Positions 24,065 through 36,050 of a stretch of 56,004 nt of DNA are shown here, piece after piece (the stretch's first letter is position 1; the number at the start of each line of letters is the position of its first letter). The stretch is from positions 1 through 56,004 of the forward strand of contig DATIBR010000184.1 in assembly GCA_035457425.1 (NCBI GenBank), read 5' to 3'. This DNA is from Terriglobales bacterium (GTDB lineage: Bacteria > Acidobacteriota > Terriglobia > Terriglobales > Acidobacteriaceae). Position numbers and translations under genes: made by a program. The notes below the pieces were generated by a model that ran no database searches, had not been told where the DNA came from, and was given only the letters and a program-made list of their open reading frames with translations.

Positions 24065-25207
24065 CTATTGGCGCGCGTCTTGCGCGCGGCCCTTCCACTC
24101 GCCGCCCCTGCCGGACCAGTAGCGCAACGCCGAGTGGATGGTCGCGCCCATGTAGAAGACCGCCGCCGCTGGCAGCGTGAGCGCCCAGAGCGGGTTGCGG
24201 CGGTAGGCGCGCAGCGTGGGGATGTAGCCGACCAGCATCAGCAGGGTCGCGACGGCGCCGAGCGCGGTCGCGACCGGCTGCCGCGAGAACAACAACGCGA
24301 TGGGTGCGAGGTAGATCAGGACCATCCCGACGATGGTTGCGAGCAGCAGCGCGGCCGAGTGGCGGAGCTGGTTGAAGGCGCTGCGCGAGATCATCGCTCC
24401 GACGCCGGCGAACGAGCCGTAGCCTCGCAGGCTGCGGGATTCGCTGGTCGGGCCGAGCCAGAGGCGGCCGCCGGCGGCTTTCACCCGGGCGGCGAGCGCG
24501 CAGTCGTCGATGAGCTCGCCGCGGATGGCGGCGAGCCCGCCGGCCTGCTCGAGTGCGGCCGGCCGGATGAGGATCGCACCGCCGGCTGCGCCGGCGGTGC
24601 GGCGGGTCGGGTCCGCGATCCACTTCGGCGGATAAAGCTGGAAGAAGAAGTAGACGAACGCCGGGATGAGCAGCTTCTCAACGGAGCTCGCGCAGCGCAG
24701 CTCGACCATGGCGGAGACCATGTCGCAGCCGCGGTGGGCTTGCGCGGCGAGCGCGCCCAGGGAGCGCTCGCCGTGCGCGATGTCGGCGTCGGTGAAGAAG
24801 AAGAAATCGGCGCCGAAGCGCTGCGCCGCTTCGGCGCCCTGCTGCATCGCCCAGACTTTTCCCGCCCAGCCAGCCGGGAGCGGCTTGCCCTGCACGATCA
24901 TGAGACGATTGGCCTCGCCGCAACTCACAGCGGCGCGCCGGGCGACGGCAGCGGTGTCGTCGGTCGAGCCGTCGTCGACGACGATCGATTGCAGCAGCGC
25001 GACACCTTGTTGCGTGAGGACCGACTTCACCGCGTCATAGATGTGCTCGGCTTCGTTCCGCGCCGGGATGATGGCGACGACGCGGGGCGGCGTTCCGGGC
25101 GCGGCAAGCGGCAGGAAGAAGAAGCGCCAGAACCATCCACGCAGGAAAAAGAGATAGAGCCACGCGGCGAGCGCGAGCGAGCCGGCGAGGGTGAGTGCGA
25201 GCGACAT
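24065..25207 (-). CDS. hpnB: Hopene-associated glycosyltransferase HpnB
   Basis: 380 residues. An N-terminal helix (about 3-25) anchors a GT-A fold with VVAIIPARNEA and a DAD motif (FFTDADIAHGERS), then the HpnB-specific blocks MVSAMVELRCASSVEKLLIP, AFVYFFFQLYPP, GELIDDCALA and SLRGYGSF, and three C-terminal helices. HpnB is linked to hopanoid clusters; the exact transfer is unproven. Start chosen at MSLALT because the frame above it is Ala/Arg/Ser-rich shadow. It is the last gene of a four-gene operon; squalene-hopene cyclase genes are not in the window. Confidence 0.88.
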   Translation of the reverse strand: MSLALTLAGSLALAAWLYLFFLRGWFWRFFFLPLAAPGTPPRVVAIIPARNEAEHIYDAVKSVLTQQGVALLQSIVVDDGSTDDTAAVARRAAVSCGEANRLMIVQGKPLPAGWAGKVWAMQQGAEAAQRFGADFFFFTDADIAHGERSLGALAAQAHRGCDMVSAMVELRCASSVEKLLIPAFVYFFFQLYPPKWIADPTRRTAGAAGGAILIRPAALEQAGGLAAIRGELIDDCALAARVKAAGGRLWLGPTSESRSLRGYGSFAGVGAMISRSAFNQLRHSAALLLATIVGMVLIYLAPIALLFSRQPVATALGAVATLLMLVGYIPTLRAYRRNPLWALTLPAAAVFYMGATIHSALRYWSGRGGEWKGRAQDARQ

Positions 25208-25253
25208 GGTGCGGGCGCTTGATTCTATCCAAGCGGCCCGCCCCTTTCGTTGT

Positions 25254-25823
25254 CTACGCCGGCACGACGCGCGGGAGGAAGCCCTGGCCGAGCAGCGCGC
25301 CCGCGCTCGCGATCTGCGTGAGCGCGCGGTGGCGGTAGCTGAAGGCCTCGCGCACCAGCCGCCGCGCGAACAGGCCGTGCGCCAGGCGGCCGAGCAGGCC
25401 CGGGCGCAGCCGGTAGCGCACGATGTCGCGCACCAGCGTGCCGCGCCGGCCCTCGCGCTCGAGCGCGAGGAACTCATGCTTGTGTCGCCAGCTCATCAGC
25501 CACGAGTTGTGCTCGTCGGTGAAGTGGTGTCCCCAGCGATAGCGCGTGATGTAGGCGCGGTGCCGACGTCGCCACAGCGGGAACCACGCCAGCGGCGCGT
25601 AGGACAGCACGACCTGCGAGCCGGCGCCCAGGAACGATTCGGCACGCCGCCGGAAGCGCTGCGGCACATCGGCCGGCGCGACCAGTCGCTTCTGCTCGAC
25701 GCGCACGCGCATCGCCTCCGGCTCGATGCGCCGCAGGTTCTCGACGTCGGAGAAGAAGGCGAAGACGTCATCCAGCTCTGCCGGGATCCATTGTTCGGTG
25801 ATGAAGGTGTAGTAGTCGCGCAT
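25254..25823 (-). CDS. SRPBCC-fold (START-like) protein
   Basis: 189 residues. The first 150 match the pattern of SRPBCC ligand-binding proteins: TFITEQWIPAELDDVFAFFSDVENLRRI at the N terminus, then a central HRAYITRYRWGHHFTDEH block and a long C-terminal helix rich in Arg. These proteins enclose a hydrophobic pocket for lipids or aromatic compounds. Next to HpnB, a role in handling a hydrophobic lipid is an attractive inference. GGAG lies seven bases before the start; three bases separate it from the DCC gene. Confidence 0.82.
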   Translation of the reverse strand: MRDYYTFITEQWIPAELDDVFAFFSDVENLRRIEPEAMRVRVEQKRLVAPADVPQRFRRRAESFLGAGSQVVLSYAPLAWFPLWRRRHRAYITRYRWGHHFTDEHNSWLMSWRHKHEFLALEREGRRGTLVRDIVRYRLRPGLLGRLAHGLFARRLVREAFSYRHRALTQIASAGALLGQGFLPRVVPA

Positions 25824-25826
25824 AAG

Positions 25827-26345
25827 TCACTCCAGCCAGTCTTTGAGTAAGTTGTTGGGGACGCCGGCCAGGGCCGGCTTGAGCGCCGCCGCGCCCAGCG
25901 ACTGCGGCTTCGGCGGAGGCGGCGGCGCTGCGGGGACCGCACACGCCGCCGCGCCGTAGCGCGCGAGCTCGTGCGCCACGCCCTCGTCGGTGTGCAGGCG
26001 GAAGAGCCGCGAGATCAGGATGCGGTTCTCCGAGATGAGCTGGAACGCGGTCCGCGCCAGCGGCAGCAGCCTGGGCGTCGCCAGGCGGTCCGCCCACTCG
26101 CGGTAGTCGACCAGCGCCCACAGGCACAGGATCCACGCGCGATCGTTCCTGTAGAGCGAGCCGTCGTCCCCGACGACGACCAGCTCGTTGACCTCCTTCG
26201 GCAAGTCAGGGAAGAGGTAGCGCGCGTGGTCCGAGCCTGCCGCGACGAACTCCAGGGGCAGGAACTTGGGCTGCGCCTCCAGCCACCGGCGCGCGCGCAC
26301 GCAGAGCCCGCAGTGGTAGTCGTAGAGAACGGTCAGTTTCTTCAT
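25827..26345 (-). CDS. DCC-family thiol-disulfide oxidoreductase-like protein (DUF393)
   Basis: 172 residues. The DxxCxxC signature is at the N terminus (LYDYHCGLCVRARRW, Cys12 and Cys15) followed by the thioredoxin-like DUF393 domain to about residue 130 and a proline-rich tail. A perfect AAGGAGG precedes the start. Members occur next to membrane lipid and quinone enzymes; the electron partner is unknown. It is the second gene of the HpnB operon. Confidence 0.85.
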   Translation of the reverse strand: MKKLTVLYDYHCGLCVRARRWLEAQPKFLPLEFVAAGSDHARYLFPDLPKEVNELVVVGDDGSLYRNDRAWILCLWALVDYREWADRLATPRLLPLARTAFQLISENRILISRLFRLHTDEGVAHELARYGAAACAVPAAPPPPPKPQSLGAAALKPALAGVPNNLLKDWLE

Positions 26346-26373
26346 GGTCAGCCTCCTTTCGGTGTCGCGGCGC

Positions 26374-26805
26374 TCAGCGCGCTCCTGGCGGCGCGGAGCC
26401 GAGGAATTCGTTGGGCGCGACGGGCGGACGCTCGCCGCGCAGCAGCGCGCGCTTTCGCATGTTCGAGAACACGCGCAGGTTGAGGAAGTGCATGGCGCCC
26501 AGCACCAGCAGGACCAGGCCGACCTTCGTGCTCAGGAACTCGATGGACTGCTGGAGCGTGCTGGGCTTGTCGCCGTACTTCAGCGCGAGCGTGACGTAGC
26601 CGATGTTGATGAGGTAGAAGCCGACGACCAGCAGGTGATTGACCGAGTTCGCCAGGCGCTCGTTGCCGCCGAAGGCGTCGACCAGGAAGAGGATCCCGTT
26701 CTGGTAGAGAGTGCGCGCCACCCAGACGGTGAGCGCGACCGAGATGAGGGTGTAGAAGACGTACGACCAGACGACGAACTGATTGCTTGCTGCGACTGCC
26801 TGCAT
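26374..26805 (-). CDS. Membrane protein, first gene of the HpnB operon
   Basis: 143 residues with three clear hydrophobic helices (about 11-31, 56-76, 92-110). Polar residues inside or beside them (SVNHLLVVGFYLINIGYVTLALKYGD) recur in uncharacterised bacterial membrane proteins. The start is preceded by AGGAGG. No known function. Downstream genes follow with gaps of 28, 3 and 46 bp, so the four are probably co-transcribed. Confidence 0.75.
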   Translation of the reverse strand: MQAVAASNQFVVWSYVFYTLISVALTVWVARTLYQNGILFLVDAFGGNERLANSVNHLLVVGFYLINIGYVTLALKYGDKPSTLQQSIEFLSTKVGLVLLVLGAMHFLNLRVFSNMRKRALLRGERPPVAPNEFLGSAPPGAR

Positions 26806-26850
26806 AGAGCCTCCTGGTGTTGCGGGGCCTGCCCGGGCTGAACCACGCCC

Positions 26851-26940
26851 TGAACATGTTCAAATGTTAAACGCGTTCAAAACATGCCGTCAAGGAAATC
26901 CTGAAGGTGTTCAAAAACGTAGAGTTTGGCGGGAAACTCT
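26851..26940. promoter_or_regulatory. Cluster of palindromes between the HpnB operon and the M24 gene
   Basis: TGAACATGTTCA (26851-26862) is a perfect 12-bp palindrome, TTAAACGCGTTCAA (26867-26880) is an imperfect one, and AGAGTTT-N6-AAACTCT (26921-26940) is a 7-bp perfect dyad. The half-site GTTCAAA occurs at 26858, 26875 and 26909. The pattern suggests operators for a dimeric regulator of TetR or similar type serving divergent promoters; the regulator gene is not nearby. Confidence 0.55.
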
Positions 26941-27001
26941 GCGCTTTTCGAGGTTTGGCGACGCTGGTGGTACATTCGTCGGTCCTTCCGAGGAGTCCGA
27001 G

Positions 27002-28294
27002 ATGAAACCGACTCGCCGAGGTTTTCTGCAGGGCGCGGGAGTAGCGGCCGCCGCCGCGCTGGTGCCGCCGTTCGCAGCCGCCGAAGAGCAGAAGCCGCCG
27101 CTCCCTGAGCCGATCGCGCGGCTGAAGTCGCGCAAGGCGGAGGCCAAGCCCATCACCAAGGAGGAGCGCGAGCAGCGCCTCGAGCGCGCGCGAGAGCTGA
27201 TGGCCGCGAACAAGCTCGACGCCCTCTTCCTCTGCGGCGGGACCTCGCTGCGATACTTCTCCGGGATCTCGTGGTGGCTGAGCGAGCGCCTGTTCGCGAT
27301 GGTCGTGCCGGCGAAAGGGAAGCCGTTCTTCGTCTGCCCGGCGTTCGAGCACGATCGCGCGATGGAGCAAGTGGAGGCGGGGCTCGGCTCCAAGGATCCG
27401 GAGATGCGGCTTTGGCAGGAGGACGAAAGTCCCTACCAGCGCGTGGCCGAGGGCCTGAAGGCGCGCGGCATTGCGGGCGGCAAGCTCGGCATCGAGGAGA
27501 CGGTCTACTGGGTTTACAGCGAGGGTGTGGGGAAGGCCGCGCCGGCGCTCCAGCTGGCGAGCGCCACGGCGGTCACCGCGGGTTGCCGCATGATCAAGAG
27601 CGCGCACGAGCTGGCGTTGATGCAGCTGGCGAACGAGGTCACGCTGGCCGCGTACCAGGCGGCGTATGAATCCACCAAGCCGGGCATGACGCAGCGCGAT
27701 TTTGCGCGCTTCGTCGAGCAGGCGCATGAACAGCAGGGATTCGACGGCGGCGCCGGCGTCCAGGTGGGCGAGTTCTCCGCGCTGCCCCACGGCTCGGTGA
27801 AGCCGCAGGTCATCAAGGAAGGCGAGATCCTGCTGGTGGACGGCGGCTGCAAGGTCGAAGGCTACTCGTCGGACATCAGCCGCACCTTCGTGCTCGGCAA
27901 GCCGACGGACAAGATGAAGCAGGTGTTCGAGGTGGAGCACCGCGCGCAGTCGGCGGCGCTGGCGGCGGCCAAGCCGGGCGTGCCGTGCGAGGCGGTCGAC
28001 GCGGCCGCGCGCAAGGTGATCACCGACGCCGGCCACGGGCCGGATTACAACCGCTTCACGCACCGCGTGGGCCACGGCATCGGCATGGACGTGCACGAGT
28101 GGCCGTACCTGGTCCGCGGCAACCAGCTCAAGCTCGCGCCCGGCATGTGCTTCTCGGACGAGCCCGGCATCTACCTGCGCGGCGAGTTCGGTGTGCGGCT
28201 CGAGGACGACATGCACATCACCGAGTCGGGCGCGGAACTGTTCACGCCGCAGAGCCCGAGCCTGGAAGACCCGTTCGGGAAATCCACAACATAG
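27002..28294 (+). CDS. Tat-exported M24 metallopeptidase (Xaa-Pro aminopeptidase-like)
   Basis: 430 residues. The N terminus has a twin-arginine signal (TRRGFLQGAGVAAAAAL), so it is exported folded. An N-terminal creatinase-like domain (about 55-195) precedes the pita-bread domain. The five metal ligands are present: Asp in LLVDGG, Asp in SSDISRTF, His in HRVGHGIGMDVHE, Glu in SDEPGIY and Glu in VRLEDDMHI. It should cleave an N-terminal residue, probably before proline. GAGGAG precedes the start. Confidence 0.92.
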   Translation: MKPTRRGFLQGAGVAAAAALVPPFAAAEEQKPPLPEPIARLKSRKAEAKPITKEEREQRLERARELMAANKLDALFLCGGTSLRYFSGISWWLSERLFAMVVPAKGKPFFVCPAFEHDRAMEQVEAGLGSKDPEMRLWQEDESPYQRVAEGLKARGIAGGKLGIEETVYWVYSEGVGKAAPALQLASATAVTAGCRMIKSAHELALMQLANEVTLAAYQAAYESTKPGMTQRDFARFVEQAHEQQGFDGGAGVQVGEFSALPHGSVKPQVIKEGEILLVDGGCKVEGYSSDISRTFVLGKPTDKMKQVFEVEHRAQSAALAAAKPGVPCEAVDAAARKVITDAGHGPDYNRFTHRVGHGIGMDVHEWPYLVRGNQLKLAPGMCFSDEPGIYLRGEFGVRLEDDMHITESGAELFTPQSPSLEDPFGKSTT

Positions 28295-28441
28295 AGCGGC
28301 TCCACGGCCCGCATCACCGCGATAAACGCAATCCCTAGTGGTTCATCGGCAGCGAAGCGCGAGGCCTCGCGCTTTTTCCGGAGGGCTGCACCATCCCTGG
28401 TGCTAGTACCTTTTCCACAACCAAGACCTGCAACTTTGTTG
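28295..28441. other. Gap before the mraZ promoter
   Basis: Nothing beyond short hairpins (for example CCATCCCTGG) is recognised between the M24 stop and the mraZ -35 element. The gene-free gap continues to 28678 and contains the promoter and MraZ box. Confidence 0.5.
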
Positions 28442-28469
28442 TTGACACACAACCATTTGCGCGTAGGAT
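28442..28469 (+). promoter_or_regulatory. mraZ/dcw cluster promoter
   Basis: A perfect TTGACA (28442-28447), a 16-bp spacer and TAGGAT (28464-28469). The -10 overlaps the first MraZ-box repeat, fitting autorepression. The leader to the mraZ start is about 200 nt. Confidence 0.78.
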
Positions 28470-28496
28470 GTGGTCCAAAGTGGTAGAAAGTGGTAA
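28467..28496 (+). promoter_or_regulatory. MraZ box: three 10-nt direct repeats
   Basis: Units GATGTGGTCC, AAAGTGGTAG and AAAGTGGTAA are exactly contiguous with a 10-bp period. GTGG repeats at 10-bp steps upstream of mraZ are the known operator for the MraZ ring protein. Confidence 0.8.
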
Positions 28497-28678
28497 GCAG
28501 GCAGTTGATTTCAGGGGCACGGGGAACCGGTCGACCAACGGGTACATGCATAACGACGACCCGAAAAACGACGCGAAAGAGCCCAATGCCAACGAGTTAC
28601 TGACTGCTTTGGCCGGAATCGCAGTACTGGCCGCCCGGCATAGCCGATTGAACACCCCGAAGAGTCGGGGAAACAAGT

Positions 28679-29119
28679 ATGTTTCGCGGCAACCATCCAA
28701 CGCGCGTCGACGAAAAGGGACGGCTCAAGGTCCCGGCGGAATTCAAGCGCCTGATCGACGAGAAGTATGCCAACGCGTTCTACATCACCAGCGTGGATGG
28801 CGAGCGTGCGTTGATCTACCCGATGGAGGAATGGCAGCGCATCGAGGAGAAACTGTCGCGCCTCTCCAGCTTCAACCCGACGAAGAAAAAGTTTTTGGAC
28901 CGCACCAACTACTACGGCCAGGCGGTGGAGATGGACAACCAGGGCCGCGTGCTTCTGCCCTCGATGCTGCGCGAGTCGGCGCAACTGAAGGGCGAGGTGG
29001 CGGTGCTGGGGAACCTGACGCACCTGGCCGTGCGGAACATGGAGTCGTACCGCAAGGAGCTCGTAGAGAACCCGTTCACGGCTGAGGATGAAAAGACTCT
29101 CGACGAACTGGGCATCTAG
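28679..29119 (+). CDS. mraZ: Transcriptional regulator MraZ
   Basis: 146 residues. Two SpoVT/AbrB-like half-domains each carry the DxxxR motif, DEKGR (about 11-15) and DNQGR (about 86-90). It forms a ring-shaped oligomer that binds repeated boxes before its own gene and usually represses the dcw operon. It is the first gene of the cluster; its stop overlaps the rsmH GTG by one base. A GGGGAAA stretch serves as ribosome-binding site. Confidence 0.96.
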   Translation: MFRGNHPTRVDEKGRLKVPAEFKRLIDEKYANAFYITSVDGERALIYPMEEWQRIEEKLSRLSSFNPTKKKFLDRTNYYGQAVEMDNQGRVLLPSMLRESAQLKGEVAVLGNLTHLAVRNMESYRKELVENPFTAEDEKTLDELGI

Positions 29120-30075
29120 TGGCGGCGGAAGAGTTTGGGGATACAGAAAATGCCCCTCGGGGCAGACATGGCGGTGGGGAAGTCAGCCATGTTCCGGTTC
29201 TTTCAAAAGAAGCGATCGACTTTTTGGCAGTCCGGCGCGGCGGCACCTATATCGACGCGACCTTGGGCTTAGGCGGGCACTCCTACGAAATCGCAAGACG
29301 CCTGGGCGCACAGGGTCGTTTGATTGGCTTCGATAAGGACACGCATGCGCTGGAACTGGCGCGCAGGCGCCTGACCAGTCCTCCGGCGGAACTCGCCGGC
29401 GACTGGCCGGAGGTGACCTTGCTGCACCGCAGCTTCGCCGAAGTCGGCCGGACGGCGCCACCGGGAACGGTGGACGGCATCCTGGCCGACATCGGGCTGA
29501 GCTCGCTGCAGCTCGGCGACGCGGCGCGCGGATTCAGCTTTCAGGCGGAAGGGCCGCTCGACATGCGGATGGACCCGCATTCCGAGCGCACCGCCGAACA
29601 AGTGGTAAACCAGCTCGACGAGAGCGATCTCGCCGATCTGATTTACGAATTCGGTGAGGAAAGGAGGTCGCGGAGAATCGCCAGAGCCATTGTCCGCTCG
29701 CGGCCGATACGAACTACCGCTCATCTAGCACAAGTTATATCGGCCGCGAGTCGGTCAATGTATTCCGGAGAAAAGATTCATCCCGCGACTCGAACCTTTC
29801 AAGCGATCCGGATCTACGTGAATCGGGAGCTGGAGGACTTGCGGGCGCTGCTGCGTGACGACGGCGCGCCCCGGGCGTTGCAAGCGGGTGGCAGGCTGGT
29901 GGTGATCAGCTTCCACTCGCTCGAGGACCGGATCGTGAAAGACGCGTTCCGGGACGGCGCCAGGCAAGGGTTCTACCAGCTGCTGACCAAGAAAGTGGTC
30001 ACGGCGGGTGACGAGGAGGTCGATCGCAATCCACGGTCGCGCAGCGCGAAGCTGCGCGCCGTCGAAAAAGTTTAA
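29119..30075 (+). CDS. rsmH: 16S rRNA (cytosine-1402-N4)-methyltransferase RsmH
   Basis: 318 residues, GTG start overlapping the mraZ stop. The RsmH signatures HVPVLSKEAIDFL, the SAM-binding ATLGLGGHSYEIA, DGILADIGLSSLQL and the C-terminal VISFHSLEDRIVKDAFR are complete. It methylates C1402 in the ribosomal P-site. The first 22 residues (MAAEEFGDTENAPRG...) are an extra hydrophilic tail, so translation might start later, but no better site exists. Confidence 0.95.
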   Translation: MAAEEFGDTENAPRGRHGGGEVSHVPVLSKEAIDFLAVRRGGTYIDATLGLGGHSYEIARRLGAQGRLIGFDKDTHALELARRRLTSPPAELAGDWPEVTLLHRSFAEVGRTAPPGTVDGILADIGLSSLQLGDAARGFSFQAEGPLDMRMDPHSERTAEQVVNQLDESDLADLIYEFGEERRSRRIARAIVRSRPIRTTAHLAQVISAASRSMYSGEKIHPATRTFQAIRIYVNRELEDLRALLRDDGAPRALQAGGRLVVISFHSLEDRIVKDAFRDGARQGFYQLLTKKVVTAGDEEVDRNPRSRSAKLRAVEKV

Positions 30076-30086
30076 AGCTGCGGGCG

Positions 30087-30190
30087 AGTAGAGGCGCTGA
30101 GCGCAGTGAGAGTCCGGGGCGGCGTTGCCTACCTCTACTAGGGCGAAAAGAAATTCCTCCGAATCCTTCCACTTACAACGCCGCCCCGGA
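30087..30190 (+). ncRNA. Possible structured leader between rsmH and the 61-residue ORF
   Basis: A perfect 15-bp inverted repeat (30113-30127 with 30176-30190, arm TCCGGGGCGGCGTTG) is interleaved with an 8-bp one (AGTAGAGG at 30087-30094 with CCTCTACT at 30132-30139). In RNA the two would form a pseudoknot or exclude one another. A GCGC-TGA-GCGC hairpin lies inside. The 3' arm ends 47 nt before the next start codon. No named riboswitch matches. Confidence 0.45.
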
Positions 30191-30237
30191 AAAAGTTCAG
30201 CAGCACCGGCCCAACTCCCCCGGGCCGAAGGGGAAAG

Positions 30238-30423
30238 ATGTACCGAGACACGCAGTACACGGGACGAATGATCGAGGACCTGATCGGCAGCGTGCAGAAG
30301 GCGGAAGCGCACGCCGGGACGGGCCTCGGGAGCTCCGAGCCAGCGGTGGCGGCGTGGTACGAGCCGTCCACCTATCCAGTCAACCACAGCAGCGTCATCG
30401 AAGAACTGCTCGGAGTCGCCTAA
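30238..30423 (+). CDS. Small dcw-cluster protein, 61 residues, unknown
   Basis: ATG with GAAGGGG seven bases upstream; its TAA overlaps the ftsL ATG (TAATG), so ftsL translation is coupled to it. The sequence is soluble and acidic, with MYRDTQYTGRMIEDLIGSV near the N terminus and a C-terminal VNHSSVIEELLGVA. No signal peptide or helix long enough to span a membrane. I do not recognise the family. Position and coupling support a real gene with a division-related or leader-peptide role. Confidence 0.65.
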   Translation: MYRDTQYTGRMIEDLIGSVQKAEAHAGTGLGSSEPAVAAWYEPSTYPVNHSSVIEELLGVA

Positions 30424-30893
30424 TGGCAACGGCATCGGTAGCACACAACCAGGGACGCATCGTGGCGCAGACGGCCGCATGGCGCGGCGCGACGCCCGAG
30501 ATCCACTTCGTGAAGGCGATCGACAACTCGCGGCTGGTGAAGGTCGCCGACACCGAGCGCAATCGCGAGATGATGCAGTTCACCATGGCGTGCGCGCTGC
30601 TGTTCGTGCTCGCGCTCGGCTACATGTGGCAGCACTACTCGGCGATCGAGTACGGCTACCGCATCCAGGCGATGAAGGGCGAGCGCGACCGGCTGGTGGA
30701 GATGAATCGCGCGCTGCGGCTCGAAGAGGCCTCGCTGCGCGACCCGCAGCGCATCGACGCGCTGGCGCGCGGCATGGGCATGATCCAGCCGCAGCCCGGG
30801 CAGGTGGTGCAGCTCGACGCGCCCAACCCGGACAGCGGCGGCGCGGTCCTGGCACAAGTCTCGCAGGCAGTCGTCGTGCCTTCGACGCAATAG
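30423..30893 (+). CDS. ftsL: Cell division protein FtsL
   Basis: 156 residues. One transmembrane helix (about 59-78, FTMACALLFVLALGYMW) follows a cytoplasmic tail of about 55 residues; a periplasmic coiled coil with leucine heptads follows (YGYRIQAMKGERDRLVEMNR). Sequence conservation in FtsL is low; the assignment rests on topology and on its place between rsmH and ftsI. It would form the FtsQLB-type divisome subcomplex. Confidence 0.85.
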   Translation: MATASVAHNQGRIVAQTAAWRGATPEIHFVKAIDNSRLVKVADTERNREMMQFTMACALLFVLALGYMWQHYSAIEYGYRIQAMKGERDRLVEMNRALRLEEASLRDPQRIDALARGMGMIQPQPGQVVQLDAPNPDSGGAVLAQVSQAVVVPSTQ

Positions 30894-30960
30894 TTCGAAG
30901 TCGGTTGGTGGTTAAGGGTTCCGGTTTGTCGACTTCAACCAAAGTTCACGACCGGTAAAG

Positions 30961-30992
30961 CATGGCGGTCCCGCTCGGCGGTGACCGCCATG
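30961..30992 (+). promoter_or_regulatory. Perfect hairpin at the ftsI start
   Basis: CATGGCGGTC (30961-30970) and GACCGCCATG (30983-30992) are exact inverted arms with a 12-nt loop, followed by TGTGGTTCTTTTGG. The left arm contains the upstream candidate start codon of ftsI. Confidence 0.55.
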
Positions 30993-33160
30993 TGGTTCTT
31001 TTGGAAATGGCAGAGAAGACACTCCGCACCGACGCGCGCCAACGGCTGTACATCCTGGGTGGGCTGCTTTGTTTCTGGGTCCTGGCCATCGGCTGCCGTC
31101 TGGTCTACCTCCAGGTCTTCCACTACGGCGATTTCGCCAAGCAAGCGCAGCGGCAGCAGCAGCGCTCCATCGAGGTCTCGCCCTCGCGCGGCGTCATCTA
31201 CGACCGCAACGGCAAGGAGCTGGCCATGTCGGTCAGCGTGGACTCCATCTTCGCCGTGCCGTCGGAGGTCCCTGACCAGGAATCTGCCGCCAGCGTGCTC
31301 GCGCAAGTGCTGGGCAGCGACCGCGACGAGATCCTGGCGCGCCTGCGCGGCTCGCGCGCCTTCGCCTGGATCGCGCGGAAGGTCGAGCCGGAGAAGAGCG
31401 CGCGCGTCCGCGCGCTCAACCTGCGCGGCGTCTACTTCCAGAAAGAATCGAAGCGCTACTACCCGAAGAACGAGCTCGCGGCGCAGGTGTTGGGGTACGT
31501 CGGCCTGGATGACGAAGGCCTGAGCGGCGTCGAGCGCGAGTTCGACGAGCGGCTCACCGGCAAGCCGGGCCGCATGCTCATCACCATGGACGCGAAGCGC
31601 CGCTGGTTCGGCTCGGTCGAGCGCCAGCCGGTGCCGGGCGAGAGCATCGTGCTGACGATCGACGAGAAGGTGCAGTACATCGCGGAGCGCGAGCTGGAGC
31701 GCGCGATGGCGGAGACCCGCTCGCAGGCCGGCACCATCATCGTGCAGAACCCGCGCACCGGCGAGATCCTCGCGCTCGCCAGCCGCCCCACGTTCAATCC
31801 CAACGCCTTCCGCAACGTCTCGCCCGAGCAGATGAAGAACCGCGCGGTGAGCGACGTCTACGAGCCCGGCTCCACGTTCAAGCTCGTCACCATCGCGGCG
31901 GCGCTGGAAGAGAAGATCACCAACCCCGACGAGGTCATCGACTGCCAGAACGGCGCCATCTACATCGCGGGCGTCCGCATCCGCGACCACAAGGCGTACG
32001 GCAACCTGACGGTGAGCGAGATTCTGGCGCACTCCTCCGACGTCGGCGCCATCAAGCTGGGCCTGCGGCTGGGAGAAGAGCGCTTCGACCGCTACATCCG
32101 CGCCTTCGGCTTCGGGTCGCAGACGGGGGTGGAGCTGCCCGGCGAGACGCGCGGCATCACCAAGCCGGTGAACCGCTGGTCGAAGGTCTCCATCGGCGCC
32201 ATCTCGATGGGGCAGGAGATCGGCGTGTCCGCGGTGCAGCTCGCCGCCATGACTTCCACCGTCGCGAACGACGGTGTGTACACCCCGCCACGCATCGTGG
32301 CCGCCACCGCACGGCCCGGCCAGCCCTTGCAGCGCATCTCCTACCAGGTGCCCGAGCAACGCCGTGTCGTCTCGCCACTTACCTCGGTCGAGATGCGCCG
32401 GATGATGGAAGGCGTCGTGCTAAGAGGTACGGGCAGGCGCGCGATGCTCGACGGCTACACGGCAGGCGGCAAGACCGGGACGGCGCAGAAGATCGACCCG
32501 CGCACCGGCACGTATTCGCATTGGGCGCACGTCGCCAGCTTCACCGGCTTCGCGCCGGTGAACAACCCGGCGGTCGTGGTGGCGGTGATCCTCGACTCGC
32601 CCGCCGGCCTGCATGAAGGCGGCCAGGTCGCGGCGCCCGTGTTCTCGCGCGTCACGCAGCAGGTGTTGTCGTACCTGAACGTGCCGCACGACGTGGAAGT
32701 GCGGAATCCGCAGCGCCTGCTGTTGCGCGCTGCCGCGCAGGTGAAAGATGAAGAGATCGCAGAAAGCTCTCCCGACCGCTTTGGCGGCACGCTCGCGCCG
32801 GAAGACGCGGATGCGTCCGCGAGCGCCGCGTCGCAGCCGGCCCCGGCGGCGACAGCGGCCGTACGCCCGGCGAGCCTGGTGAAGAGCCAGCCGATCGCGG
32901 CGGAGCCGGCGCGGCCGCCGCTGGAAGCGCCCGCGCTCCCGCAACCGCCCGTGACCGGCGGCACGGTCGTGGTCGACGTCGAAGGCGGCGCGGTCGTGCC
33001 CTCGTTCGTGGGCAAGCCGCTGCGGCAGGTCATCGAGCTGGCGCAGGAGCACGGCATCGAGATCGACGTGGCCGGCTCCGGCGTGGCGCGCGAGCAGGCG
33101 CCCGCGGCCGGCACGCGCATCCCCGCGGGCGCGCACGTCGCCGTGCGTTTCGCGCGGTAG
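30962..33160 (+). CDS. ftsI: Peptidoglycan transpeptidase FtsI (PBP3-like) with PASTA domain
   Basis: 732 residues from this ATG; a second ATG at 31007 (MAEKTLRT) would make it 717 and neither has a clear ribosome-binding site. A transmembrane anchor (about 30-50) precedes the pedestal domain and the transpeptidase: SxxK as STFK (about 303), then SSD (about 358-360) where SxN is usual, and KTG (about 503). A Pro/Ala-rich linker (610-670) leads to one C-terminal PASTA domain (VVPSFVGKPLRQVIELA). It cross-links septal peptidoglycan with FtsW. Confidence 0.93.
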   Translation: MAVPLGGDRHVVLLEMAEKTLRTDARQRLYILGGLLCFWVLAIGCRLVYLQVFHYGDFAKQAQRQQQRSIEVSPSRGVIYDRNGKELAMSVSVDSIFAVPSEVPDQESAASVLAQVLGSDRDEILARLRGSRAFAWIARKVEPEKSARVRALNLRGVYFQKESKRYYPKNELAAQVLGYVGLDDEGLSGVEREFDERLTGKPGRMLITMDAKRRWFGSVERQPVPGESIVLTIDEKVQYIAERELERAMAETRSQAGTIIVQNPRTGEILALASRPTFNPNAFRNVSPEQMKNRAVSDVYEPGSTFKLVTIAAALEEKITNPDEVIDCQNGAIYIAGVRIRDHKAYGNLTVSEILAHSSDVGAIKLGLRLGEERFDRYIRAFGFGSQTGVELPGETRGITKPVNRWSKVSIGAISMGQEIGVSAVQLAAMTSTVANDGVYTPPRIVAATARPGQPLQRISYQVPEQRRVVSPLTSVEMRRMMEGVVLRGTGRRAMLDGYTAGGKTGTAQKIDPRTGTYSHWAHVASFTGFAPVNNPAVVVAVILDSPAGLHEGGQVAAPVFSRVTQQVLSYLNVPHDVEVRNPQRLLLRAAAQVKDEEIAESSPDRFGGTLAPEDADASASAASQPAPAATAAVRPASLVKSQPIAAEPARPPLEAPALPQPPVTGGTVVVDVEGGAVVPSFVGKPLRQVIELAQEHGIEIDVAGSGVAREQAPAAGTRIPAGAHVAVRFAR

Positions 33161-33171
33161 AATCGAGCTCA

Positions 33172-34674
33172 ATGACGTTCGCTTCTCTCCTCGATGGGGC
33201 CGAGGTCCTCAGCCAAAGCGGCAGCGCGTTCGTGAAGGGTGTGGACTACGACTCGCGGCGCGTCCAGCCCGGCTGGCTGTTCGTCGCCATGCGCGGCGAA
33301 GCGACCGACGGCAACCGCTACATCGACGCGGCGTTGAAGGCCGGCGCCATCGCCGTCGTCACCGATGCGGCGGAGGAGAAGCCGCGCGAAGGCGTGGCCT
33401 GGGCGGTCGTGCCGCACGGACGCCGCGCGCTGGCACGCATCAGCGCGAACTTCTACAAGCATCCCGAGAATCGGCTGAAGCTGGTCGGCATCACCGGCAC
33501 CAACGGCAAGACGACCACGTCCTATCTCGTCGAGTCGATCCTCAACGCCGCGGGGCGCAAGAGCGTGCTCGTCGGGACCATCGAATACCACGTCGCCGGC
33601 AAGAAGATTCCCGCGCCGCACACGACGCCGGAAGCGCTCGAGCTCGAAAGGCTCTTTGCGGAAGCGGTCGCGAACGGCGCGACCGACGGCGTGATGGAAG
33701 TCTCGTCGCACGCGCTCGCGCTGCAGCGCGTCTACGGCATCCCGTTCGAGGTCGCGGTGTTCACCAACCTCACGCGCGACCACCTCGACTACCACAAGGA
33801 CTTCGACGACTACTTCGCCGCCAAGCGCATCCTGTTCGAGGGCTGCGGCACCGAGCCGCCCACCACCTCGGTCATCAACGGCGACCACGAGTACGGGCAG
33901 AGGCTGGCGCAGTTCGCCAAGTCGCGCTCCCAGGTCTTCACCTACGGGATCGAGGCCGGCGAGTTCCGCCCGCAGGAGCTCGAGATCACGGAGAAGGGAA
34001 GCCGGTTCGACGTGGAGACGCCCGCGGGAAAGCTCGCGATCTGGACGCCGCTCATCGGGCGCGTGAACGTCTACAACGCGCTAGCCGCGATCACGACCGG
34101 GGTGGCGCGCGGACTGCCGAACGTGGCGATCGTCGAGGGCATCGCGGCGCTGCAGAACGTTCCCGGCCGGTTCCAGTTGGTGGATGAGGGCCAGCCCTTC
34201 ACCGTCGTGGTGGATTACGCGCACACCGACGACGCGCTGCGCAACCTGACGCAGGTCGCGCGCGAGTTCGTGAGCCGAAACGGAGCCCGCGGGCGCGTGA
34301 TCACGCTGTTCGGCTGCGGCGGCGACCGCGACAAGAAGAAGCGCCCGCTGATGGGCGAGGCCGCCGGCAAGGGCAGCGACTTCGTGGTGCTGACCTCCGA
34401 CAATCCGCGCAGCGAAGAGCCGATGGCCATCATCCAGGACGCGCTCCCAGGGCTCGCCGCGACCGGGACGCGGCATGCGGTCGAGCCGGATCGGCGAAAA
34501 GCCATCGCGCTCGCCGTCGCCGAGGCGAAGCCCGGCGACATCGTGCTCATCGCCGGAAAAGGGCACGAGGACTACCAGATCACGCGCGCGGGCACGCAGC
34601 CGTTCTCCGATGCGCAGGTTGCGCGCGCGGCGCTGCAGGTGCTCGGTCACGGCGCGGCGAGGGTGGAGCGATGA
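33172..34674 (+). CDS. murE: UDP-MurNAc-tripeptide ligase MurE, meso-DAP type
   Basis: 500 residues. The Mur ligase ATP loop GITGTNGKTTT (about 104-114), the MEVSSHAL and TNLTRDHLDYH motifs, and the DNPRSEEP segment are complete. DNPR is the signature of enzymes adding meso-diaminopimelate rather than lysine, so the wall should be of the Gram-negative A1gamma type. It is 11 bp after ftsI; its stop overlaps the murF start by ATGA. Confidence 0.96.
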   Translation: MTFASLLDGAEVLSQSGSAFVKGVDYDSRRVQPGWLFVAMRGEATDGNRYIDAALKAGAIAVVTDAAEEKPREGVAWAVVPHGRRALARISANFYKHPENRLKLVGITGTNGKTTTSYLVESILNAAGRKSVLVGTIEYHVAGKKIPAPHTTPEALELERLFAEAVANGATDGVMEVSSHALALQRVYGIPFEVAVFTNLTRDHLDYHKDFDDYFAAKRILFEGCGTEPPTTSVINGDHEYGQRLAQFAKSRSQVFTYGIEAGEFRPQELEITEKGSRFDVETPAGKLAIWTPLIGRVNVYNALAAITTGVARGLPNVAIVEGIAALQNVPGRFQLVDEGQPFTVVVDYAHTDDALRNLTQVAREFVSRNGARGRVITLFGCGGDRDKKKRPLMGEAAGKGSDFVVLTSDNPRSEEPMAIIQDALPGLAATGTRHAVEPDRRKAIALAVAEAKPGDIVLIAGKGHEDYQITRAGTQPFSDAQVARAALQVLGHGAARVER

Positions 34675-36050
34675 AGCTGGCGTTGGAAAAAGTCGGCGAG
34701 TATCTGGGCGCGACCGGCGACTTCGACCGCCATGCCACCGCGATGGGCTATTCCATCGACTCGCGCACCATCAAGCCGGGCGAGCTCTTCTTCGCGATCA
34801 AGGGTGAGCACTTCGACGGCCACGATTTCGTCGAGGCCGCGCTGCAAGCGGGCGCCGTGGCGGCTGTGGTGAGGAAAGACCGCGTCCCCGGCGGCGAACT
34901 GGCTTACCGCTGCATCTCGGTCGACGACACGCTTGCCGCGCTGCAGCGGCTCGCGCTCGCCGTCCGCAAGCTCTGGGGCAAGACGCTGGTCGGCGTGACC
35001 GGTTCCGCCGGCAAGACCACGACCAAGGAAGCCATCGCGCACGTGCTGGCGGCGAAGTTTCGCGTGCTGAAGTCGGAAGGCAATCTCAACAACCACTATG
35101 GCCTGCCGCTGCAGTTGTTGCGCCTGGAACCGGAACACGAGATCGCCGTCATCGAGATGGGCATGAACCACGCCGGCGAGATCGCCGCGCTGTGCAAGAT
35201 CGCCGAACCGAACCTGGGCGTGGTAACGAACGTCGCGCCCGTGCACCTGGGTTTCTTCAGCTCGGTGCGCGAGATCGCGTGCGCGAAGTACGAGCTCATC
35301 CAGTCGCTGCCGCGCGGCGGCACGGCGGTGCTCAATGCCGACGACCCCTACGTCTCGCAGTTCGGGCGCGACTTCCACGGGAAAGTCGTGCTCTACGGCG
35401 TCGACGGGCGCGCCGATGTTCGCGCCGAGAACGTCCGGGAACGCGGGGAGCAAGGCTCGACCTTCGATCTGGTCGCGGGTGAGAGCCATCCGGTCGAGCT
35501 GCCGCTGCTCGGCAAGCACAATGTCTATAACGCGCTCGCCGCCGCGGCGGCAGGGATGCAACGCGGCATGAGCGTGCGCGAGATCGCGGGCGCGCTTGCC
35601 TCGCTCCAGCCCGCCGACAAGCGCGGGCAGTTGCTGCGAGTGGCAGGCGCGACCGTCATCAACGACTGCTACAATTCGAATCCGAAAGCTCTCGAAGCGA
35701 TGATCGATGCGCTCGCCTCGCTGCCCGCGAAGCGGCGCATCGTGGTCGCGGGCGAGATGCTCGAACTGGGCGACGCGGCCGATGAGCTGCATTTCATGTG
35801 CGGCGCGCACGCCGCGGCCCGGCGCATGGACATGCTGGTGGGGGTACGCGGCGCGGCCAGCAAGATCGTGGAAGGCGCCCGCGCGAACGGGTTGCTCGCC
35901 GCGCAGTACGTCGGGTCGCCGGAAGAGGCGGGCGAGTGGCTGGCGGCGACGGTCCGCCAGGGCGACGCGGTGTTGCTCAAGGCCTCACGCGGCGTGCGGT
36001 TGGAGCGCGCGCTCGAGCGCTGGCAGGCGCAGGTTTCGGCCACGAAGTAA
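34671..36050 (+). CDS. murF: UDP-MurNAc-tripeptide-D-Ala-D-Ala ligase MurF
   Basis: 459 residues. The ATP loop GVTGSAGKTTTKE (about 109-121), EMGMNHAGEI and NDCYNSNPKAL are the MurF signatures. It adds D-Ala-D-Ala to complete the pentapeptide. The start overlaps murE (ATGA) and mraY follows after 36 bp. Confidence 0.96.
   Translation: MKLALEKVGEYLGATGDFDRHATAMGYSIDSRTIKPGELFFAIKGEHFDGHDFVEAALQAGAVAAVVRKDRVPGGELAYRCISVDDTLAALQRLALAVRKLWGKTLVGVTGSAGKTTTKEAIAHVLAAKFRVLKSEGNLNNHYGLPLQLLRLEPEHEIAVIEMGMNHAGEIAALCKIAEPNLGVVTNVAPVHLGFFSSVREIACAKYELIQSLPRGGTAVLNADDPYVSQFGRDFHGKVVLYGVDGRADVRAENVRERGEQGSTFDLVAGESHPVELPLLGKHNVYNALAAAAAGMQRGMSVREIAGALASLQPADKRGQLLRVAGATVINDCYNSNPKALEAMIDALASLPAKRRIVVAGEMLELGDAADELHFMCGAHAAARRMDMLVGVRGAASKIVEGARANGLLAAQYVGSPEEAGEWLAATVRQGDAVLLKASRGVRLERALERWQAQVSATK

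Follow-up and report, generated by a model that had tools for sequence, protein, structure and literature searches.

A conserved structured RNA between rsmH and ftsL in the division and cell-wall gene cluster of Acidobacteriaceae

A conserved structured RNA, which matched no Rfam 15 family, lies in the rsmH–ftsL gap of the division and cell-wall (dcw) cluster in numerous Acidobacteriaceae, which are soil bacteria of the Acidobacteriota. It was found in a window of 56,004 nucleotides (i.e., the whole stretch of DNA analyzed, from a Terriglobales bacterium) and is built around a long stem, P1. As the folded RNA is kept in many relatives while its letters change, it probably tunes the amount of division proteins. 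With a probability of roughly 0.55, we consider it a cis-acting leader that would set the translation of the next open reading frame (ORF).

The locus and its stems

For comparison, we used 111 loci (one initial locus, 30 from an RsmH search of 61 genomes, and 80 GTDB contigs), all of which had an RsmH match (111/111) and some of which represent the same genome fetched twice. A first script located the element in 61 of the 111 loci, including one spurious case inside rsmH (L052), and missed further copies in L025, L092, L005, and L033. Covariance models confirmed the copies in L030, L033, L092, G003 (genome of L005), and G019 (genome of L025). The copies form two sequence subgroups, the window's group (TCCGGGGCGGCGTTG type) and the Acidobacteriaceae type (GATCGGGCCGGGGTYGT type). 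Because a joint MAFFT alignment shifted the 3' arm by five columns, a separate alignment and covariance model were made for each subgroup, i.e., A2 and R1 for the window's group, and A4 and R2 for the Acidobacteriaceae type. The element of the window scored 86.3 bits on the plus strand and 23.1 bits on the minus strand. Pairing tests were based on 112 rows from model matches, with apparent duplicates and minus-strand echoes removed; 111 distinct cores were kept, 43 from the window's group and 68 from the Acidobacteriaceae type.

The initial annotation had placed interleaved hairpins between rsmH and the division genes, and the conserved RNA lies exactly there, mostly in intergenic sequence. 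The order in the window is mraZ, rsmH, RNA, a small ORF of 61 aa, ftsL, and ftsI (Table 1). As the Pfam score of FtsL is below the cut-off, it is the gene position that supports this name. No Pfam match was obtained for the small ORF; its TAA shares one base with the ATG of ftsL (TAATG), which suggests that the two are translationally coupled. Using simple consensus scans, from which acidobacterial promoters may differ, we found a single plus-strand promoter-like site within 25000–36000, located before mraZ (28442–28469), and no plus-strand terminator-like site between rsmH and ftsL. The RNA is therefore probably transcribed as part of a polycistronic dcw message, and an intrinsic terminator in the window was rejected for lack of such a site. 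The likely ribosome-binding site GGGGAA (30230–30235) could pair with UUCCUC (30154–30159) by five Watson–Crick pairs and one G-U pair. A small hairpin (GGCCC/GGGCC, 30208–30226) stands right before this site; L032, the nearest relative of the window, has a comparable hairpin composed of other letters. In the window's group, a small ORF whose start is MYTGTMIDELI-like precedes ftsL irrespective of whether the RNA is present or absent, and part of the Acidobacteriaceae type (L184, L186, L188, L190, and L193) carries another small ORF (MSHIYNFFDNHMEA-like, 39–40 aa) between the RNA and ftsL.

Table 1. Features of the rsmH–ftsL region, in window positions.
Feature	Position	Strand	Remarks
mraZ	28679–29119		
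rsmH (mraW), upstream gene	29119–30075	+	PF01795, 321.8 bits
8-bp stem, 5' arm	30087–30094	+	Present; no support outside the genus
P1, 5' arm	30113–30127	+	Compensatory changes in relatives
P2, 5' strand UUGCCU	30125–30130	+	First three bases are the inner end of P1
8-bp stem, 3' arm, within the P2 loop	30132–30139	+	Present; no support outside the genus
P2, 3' strand GGGCGA	30141–30146	+	Includes near-invariant GGCGA
P1 loop, 3' part, with pyrimidine runs UUCCUCC and CCUUCC	30147–30175	+	Supplies the P3 5' strand in relatives
Degenerate P3, 5' strand UCCGAA (L032: UCUGAA)	30158–30163	+	Read by hand
P1, 3' arm	30176–30190	+	Compensatory changes in relatives
Degenerate P3, 3' strand UUCAGC (L032: UUCAGA)	30196–30201	+	Read by hand
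GGGGAA, likely ribosome-binding site of the small ORF	30230–30235	+	Putative function
Small ORF, 61 aa, between RNA and ftsL	30238–30423	+	
ftsL, downstream gene	30423–30893	+	PF04999, 19.5 bits (curated cut-off 22.9)
ftsI	30962–33160		

P1 is the perfect 15-bp stem of the initial annotation and was recovered in full (100% paired, 48 nt between the arms). Four perfect inverted repeats of at least 15 bp with a spacer of 3–100 nt occur in the real window, one of them being P1, compared to one in total across 40 first-order Markov sequences of 56 kb; the stem exceeds chance expectation. Within the window's group (14 sequences), 99.0% of the P1 cells are paired, both-side changes affect 10 of the 15 pairs (17 cells), none of 500 shuffles matched any of five measures, and slid-structure controls reached 34–51% of cells paired. 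For the Acidobacteriaceae type (24 sequences), 98.3% of the cells are paired and 12 cells with both-side changes were counted (0/500 shuffles); the pairs with a both-side change numbered four, a count that 44 of 500 shuffles also reached, and 265 of 500 shuffles had as many pair types. This weaker covariation is probably due to the sequences being more alike. The single-sequence fold of the window RNA showed only a slight gain in stability over shuffled sequences (z = −1.55; 17 of 200 shuffles did as well). Across members, P1 comprises about 14–18 bp and closes a loop of about 35–90 nt. Judged by these comparisons, P1 is certain to be a real stem that is conserved by compensation. Three copies (L143, L144, and L013) carry additional G+C-rich, hairpin-like inserts in the P1 loop and retain both P1 and GGCGA.

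The 8-bp stem described alongside P1 is present as well, fully paired (100%) and interleaved with the 15-bp stem. An 8-bp Watson–Crick match between 45 nt upstream and the 48-nt loop arises at 5.2% of random window places, or at 9.9% if either flank is counted, and the stem is not clearly above chance. It is identical in L032, the only other genome of the genus seen, which hence provides no covariation. Compared to permuted partners, upstream-by-loop pairing yielded z = −0.1 (108 RNAs) and z = 0.4 (61 representatives) and remained at chance in both subgroups (z between −0.2 and 1.2 in all test variants). The stem was rejected as a conserved crossing helix, since it performed no better than permuted partners. 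The initial annotation had named covariation analysis of the rsmH–ftsL gap in relatives as the check, and uncompensated loss of both stems as the outcome that would speak against its proposal. P1 withstood this check with compensatory changes, whereas the 8-bp stem stayed at chance level and found no support outside the genus in the permuted-partner test. That the RNA must be a pseudoknot or switch between two folds thus does not follow from a stem with a chance rate of about 5–10% that is unsupported in relatives. For the same reasons, together with the lack of covariation, we regard a functional pseudoknot of P1 and the upstream stem as highly improbable, even though both stems occur in the two genomes of the genus with the 8-bp stem unchanged.

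Internal hairpins and the crossing helix P3

The P1 loop contains a near-invariant GGCGA strand, for which YYGYC at the inner P1 end is a possible pairing partner (P2). All five P2 pairs are formed in at least 75 of the 111 rows, which is a lower bound, as the script took a wrong stretch (CCGTG) in at least 11 rows. In alignment A2, 96.4% of the P2 cells are paired with a both-side change at no pair; one compensatory variant, UUGCC/GGCAA, was found in L148. We consider the P2 hairpin inside P1 likely. An alternative helix, P2', is available to the Acidobacteriaceae type, where GTYGTC can pair with GACRAC located after GGCGAAAG. Six perfect P2' pairs are formed in 31 of 68 rows and none of 5000 permuted partners was as good; the corresponding test for the window's group gave 395 of 5000 permutations. 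The inner end of P1, P2, and P2' have bases in common, and it is therefore impossible for all of them to form simultaneously. Among the 24 Acidobacteriaceae-type copies, GGCGAAAG is invariant and the letters of GUCCNNCC are near-invariant.

The idea of an interleaved conserved RNA holds insofar as many relatives have a crossing helix, but the conserved one is P3 and not the upstream 8-bp stem. In P3, the loop stretch beside the 3' arm of P1 pairs with the sequence directly after P1. For the Acidobacteriaceae type, we obtained z = 6.2 (n = 68) and z = 5.1 (38 representatives), with 0 of 5000 permuted partners as good in each case and three control pairings at or below chance. These windows had been narrowed to the stretch beside P1 after sequence inspection, with controls run alongside, which makes the P3 figures somewhat favorable. 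Like all other tests used here, the permutations are uncorrected for shared descent. Copies with long loop inserts (L143, L144, and L013) were excluded. Earlier tests gave p = 0.35 (window's group) and p = 0.48 (Acidobacteriaceae type) with gapped duplex energies, and p = 0.42 and p = 0.0006, respectively, with wide windows. Clear examples are L165 (CCUUCCUCAGA/UUUGAGGAAGG), L066 (CCAUCCCC/GGGGAUGG), and L098 (UUCCUCAUAC/GUAUGAGGGG). On the basis of these pairing statistics, P3 is well supported in the Acidobacteriaceae type.

For the window's group, the same test yielded z = 2.6 with 40 sequences (28 of 5000 permutations) and z = 1.2 with 23 representatives (634 of 5000), next to z = 1.1 for the loop-by-upstream control. 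Stems had to be at least 10 bp long for an excess to appear (3 of 40 versus 0.44 expected). Good single cases are L118 and L132. L032 forms six P3 pairs (UCUGAA/UUCAGA). At the same place in the window, UCCGAA/UUCAGC, as read by hand, pairs at four of six positions with two broken; an intact P3 is absent from this copy, the longest contiguous stem in the expected place being 3 bp. P3 is thus doubtful in the window itself. Taking a covarying helix between the hairpin loop and its flank as the mark of an H-type pseudoknot, the evidence for one is present in the Acidobacteriaceae type and weak in the window's group.

A stem of 14–18 bp can be a substrate of RNase III, and P1 is retained despite sequence change, which would also fit a processing or stability element, i.e., a site at which RNases cut or protect P1, giving the message different lifetimes on its rsmH and ftsL sides. 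Such an element leaves both the invariant GGCGA motif and P3 unexplained, and we consider it improbable.

Distribution, genomic place, and known RNA families

Of 200 sampled genomes of the family, 41 contained an R1 match and 50 an R2 match, although Infernal's stricter filters in the genome samples may miss weak copies. G158 and G208 are in both lists, resulting in 89 of 200 genomes (the samples are apparently identical). In the other 111 of the 200, neither R1 nor R2 matched, so the RNA is dispensable for the dcw cluster. Under the wider searches, R1 matched in 5 of 151 genomes of the class and 20 of 200 of the order, and R2 in 17 of 297 of the phylum, and all of these matches fall in the window's own family. 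For other families of the class, 12 loci searched with filters off gave nothing convincing (best E 0.39 for R1 and 0.24 for R2); at nine of these 12 loci, the FtsL match starts no more than 37 nt from the rsmH stop or overlaps it. According to record titles, taxa with the element include Candidatus Korobacter, Edaphobacter, Granulicella, Acidipila, Silvibacterium, and Paracidobacterium, with Edaphobacter modestus DSM 18101, Granulicella rosea DSM 18704, and Acidipila rosea DSM 103428 as named isolates. Terriglobus albidus (L061) lacks the element and has ftsL directly after rsmH.

Each genome with the RNA has one match, except for G114 with two. Forty of 41 R1 loci and 47 of 48 R2 loci lie between RsmH and FtsL, the 48th (L177) having RsmH followed by the contig end. 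Overall, this applies to 87 of the 89 loci checked, with one locus cut by the contig end and one extra copy elsewhere. In two loci, L087 and L025 (= L192), the rsmH frame continues into the RNA and stops inside it, so ribosomes completing rsmH would unfold its 5' side.

The R1 exception is the second copy in G114 (L142:4918-5019, minus strand). None of six dcw proteins matched in the 10-kb stretch around it, and the next called start codon follows 394 nt downstream. A tRNA-Leu and a phage-integrase fragment (PF00589) are found about 1 kb away, a setting that would fit an integrated element. The genome is a draft of 220 contigs, and misbinning could also account for this copy. An intact copy away from the dcw genes would suit a trans-acting small RNA that is excised from the dcw message and pairs via its CCUUCC and CCUCC runs with the ribosome-binding sites of other mRNAs, and the C/U-rich loop indeed resembles the anti-Shine-Dalgarno loops of small RNAs. 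We nevertheless find this unlikely: the run covaries with its neighbor in the Acidobacteriaceae type and is thus used within the molecule, no plus-strand terminator-like site follows the element in the window, nearly all genomes have a single copy at one locus, and the draft status of the exceptional genome weakens the extra copy as evidence.

Start codons were taken as the first ATG with a motif resembling a ribosome-binding site and an ORF of at least 38 aa. For the window's group, 42 of 43 copies have a plausible start codon of the next ORF at a distance of 20–140 nt (median 32.5) from where the model match ends. In eight of these 43 copies (L123, L129, L008, L132, L135, L134, L136, and L150), the best P3 stem reaches into the ribosome-binding site or stops no more than 2 nt away from it. 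For the Acidobacteriaceae type, where some start codons are doubtful (e.g., L189, L194, and L198), P3 mostly lies 20–130 nt ahead of the ribosome-binding site, which is too far for direct masking. Pairing between the loop and the ribosome-binding site was compared to shuffled loops, leaving out L142, L143, L144, L013, L189, L198, and L194. It gave p = 0.006 (23/39) for the window's group, a modest result as relatives are not independent, and showed no excess for the Acidobacteriaceae type (p = 0.32, 30/65). As a general rule, such pairing was rejected, being unsupported in the latter.

The initial annotation knew of no named RNA family with this layout, and no family in Rfam 15 came near its threshold at the window element (15.2 bits and E 1.6 for the best, against a threshold of 33.3); in 10 relatives, the element was free of overlap with any listed match. 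The mraW motif (RF01746), Acido-1 (RF01686), and Acido-Lenti-1 (RF01687) were without a match in the window and the 10 relatives scanned. An HDV-like or other small ribozyme was rejected due to a mismatch in strand order. In the literature on acidobacterial structured RNAs and on RNA elements between rsmH and ftsL, nothing alike was among the best-ranked matches, which do not cover a 2017 survey of 224 RNAs that may name the motif. The mraW RNA motif is located before mraW. PMC2864571 (Weinberg 2010) lists this motif for Actinomycetales and presents it, similar to our RNA, as a candidate cis-regulatory RNA, named for the mraW (rsmH) gene. UpsM is described in PMC5089854 as the 5' leader RNA of the dcw cluster in Rhodobacteraceae. 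Both RNAs are dcw-cluster leaders confined to one bacterial family; UpsM, according to the same paper, is located before mraZ, is closed by a Rho-independent terminator, and gives rise to a free small RNA, whereas the present RNA sits between rsmH and ftsL with no terminator-like site following it in the window scan.

Candidate functions and other elements of the gap

As a cis-acting leader, the RNA would work as follows. P1 closes a loop holding the GGCGA hairpin (P2) and the pyrimidine runs, and in many members a pyrimidine run pairs past P1, forming an H-type pseudoknot via P3. The leader may then set, in cis, the frequency of ribosome starts on the next ORF. For most of the Acidobacteriaceae type, this ORF is ftsL; members of the window's group have a small ORF there that overlaps or abuts ftsL. 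Thereby, ftsL and later genes could be expressed apart from mraZ–rsmH. The initially proposed role, a switch between upstream and downstream expression levels that sets their ratio, would be plausible. The most likely handle would be the opening and closing of the P3 region beside the ribosome-binding site, since the element usually ends 20–50 nt before the next start codon in the window's group. Arguing against the leader mechanism are the weak P3 in the window's group, the distant P3 in the Acidobacteriaceae type, and the extra copy away from dcw genes.

SAM-II and preQ1-II are translational pseudoknot riboswitches, and pseudoknotted ribosomal-protein leaders also exist. With these RNAs our element shares the H-type pseudoknot, whose 3' strand can be near the ribosome-binding site; it differs in its much longer P1, the inserted GGCGA hairpin, and a P3 that is often distant from the ribosome-binding site. 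If the RNA served the division and cell-wall cluster as a riboswitch for a metabolite or ion, or as an aptamer bound by a regulatory protein, this would account for the invariant GGCGAAAG and near-invariant GUCCNNCC inside a covarying, pseudoknotted fold (24 Acidobacteriaceae-type copies), and for the competition of the inner end of P1, P2, and P2' for the same bases, as in switching RNAs. As the RNA is found at one locus only, appears to lack a conserved expression platform, varies widely in its distance to the next start codon, and has a gene context hinting at no ligand beyond general cell-wall synthesis, we judge this rather unlikely. More speculatively, and as a possibility to be held tentatively, the RNA could represent a new class of ligand- or protein-sensing pseudoknots that arose in one acidobacterial family, separated ftsL from rsmH, and uses the P1/P2/P2' base competition as a switch. 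If true, the division and cell-wall cluster would have its own RNA-level control, which to our knowledge is little described for the core division cluster. The conserved RNA, its fixed place, and the named isolates make control of FtsL and downstream division proteins by mRNA folding directly testable, and the element would add a new entry to RNA-family databases.

The rsmH–ftsL gap of other relatives contains further elements. Seven Sulfotelmatobacter-type loci (L036, L039, L047, L048, L050, L051, and L020), at which neither the script nor the models found the present RNA, share another leader; it comprises the hairpin CCGGAAAACCUGCCGG, one further hairpin, and GGUUCCGUGGUAGGAAUCC as a late hairpin. 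Three of them (L036, L047, and L050) were without a match near any Rfam threshold. In five of the seven, AACCUG in the first loop could pair with a downstream CAGGUU, a possible pseudoknot without covariation. Lastly, four loci in which the RNA is absent (L007, L010, L031, and L046) carry DnaA-box-like TGTGGAWAA or close variants in this gap.
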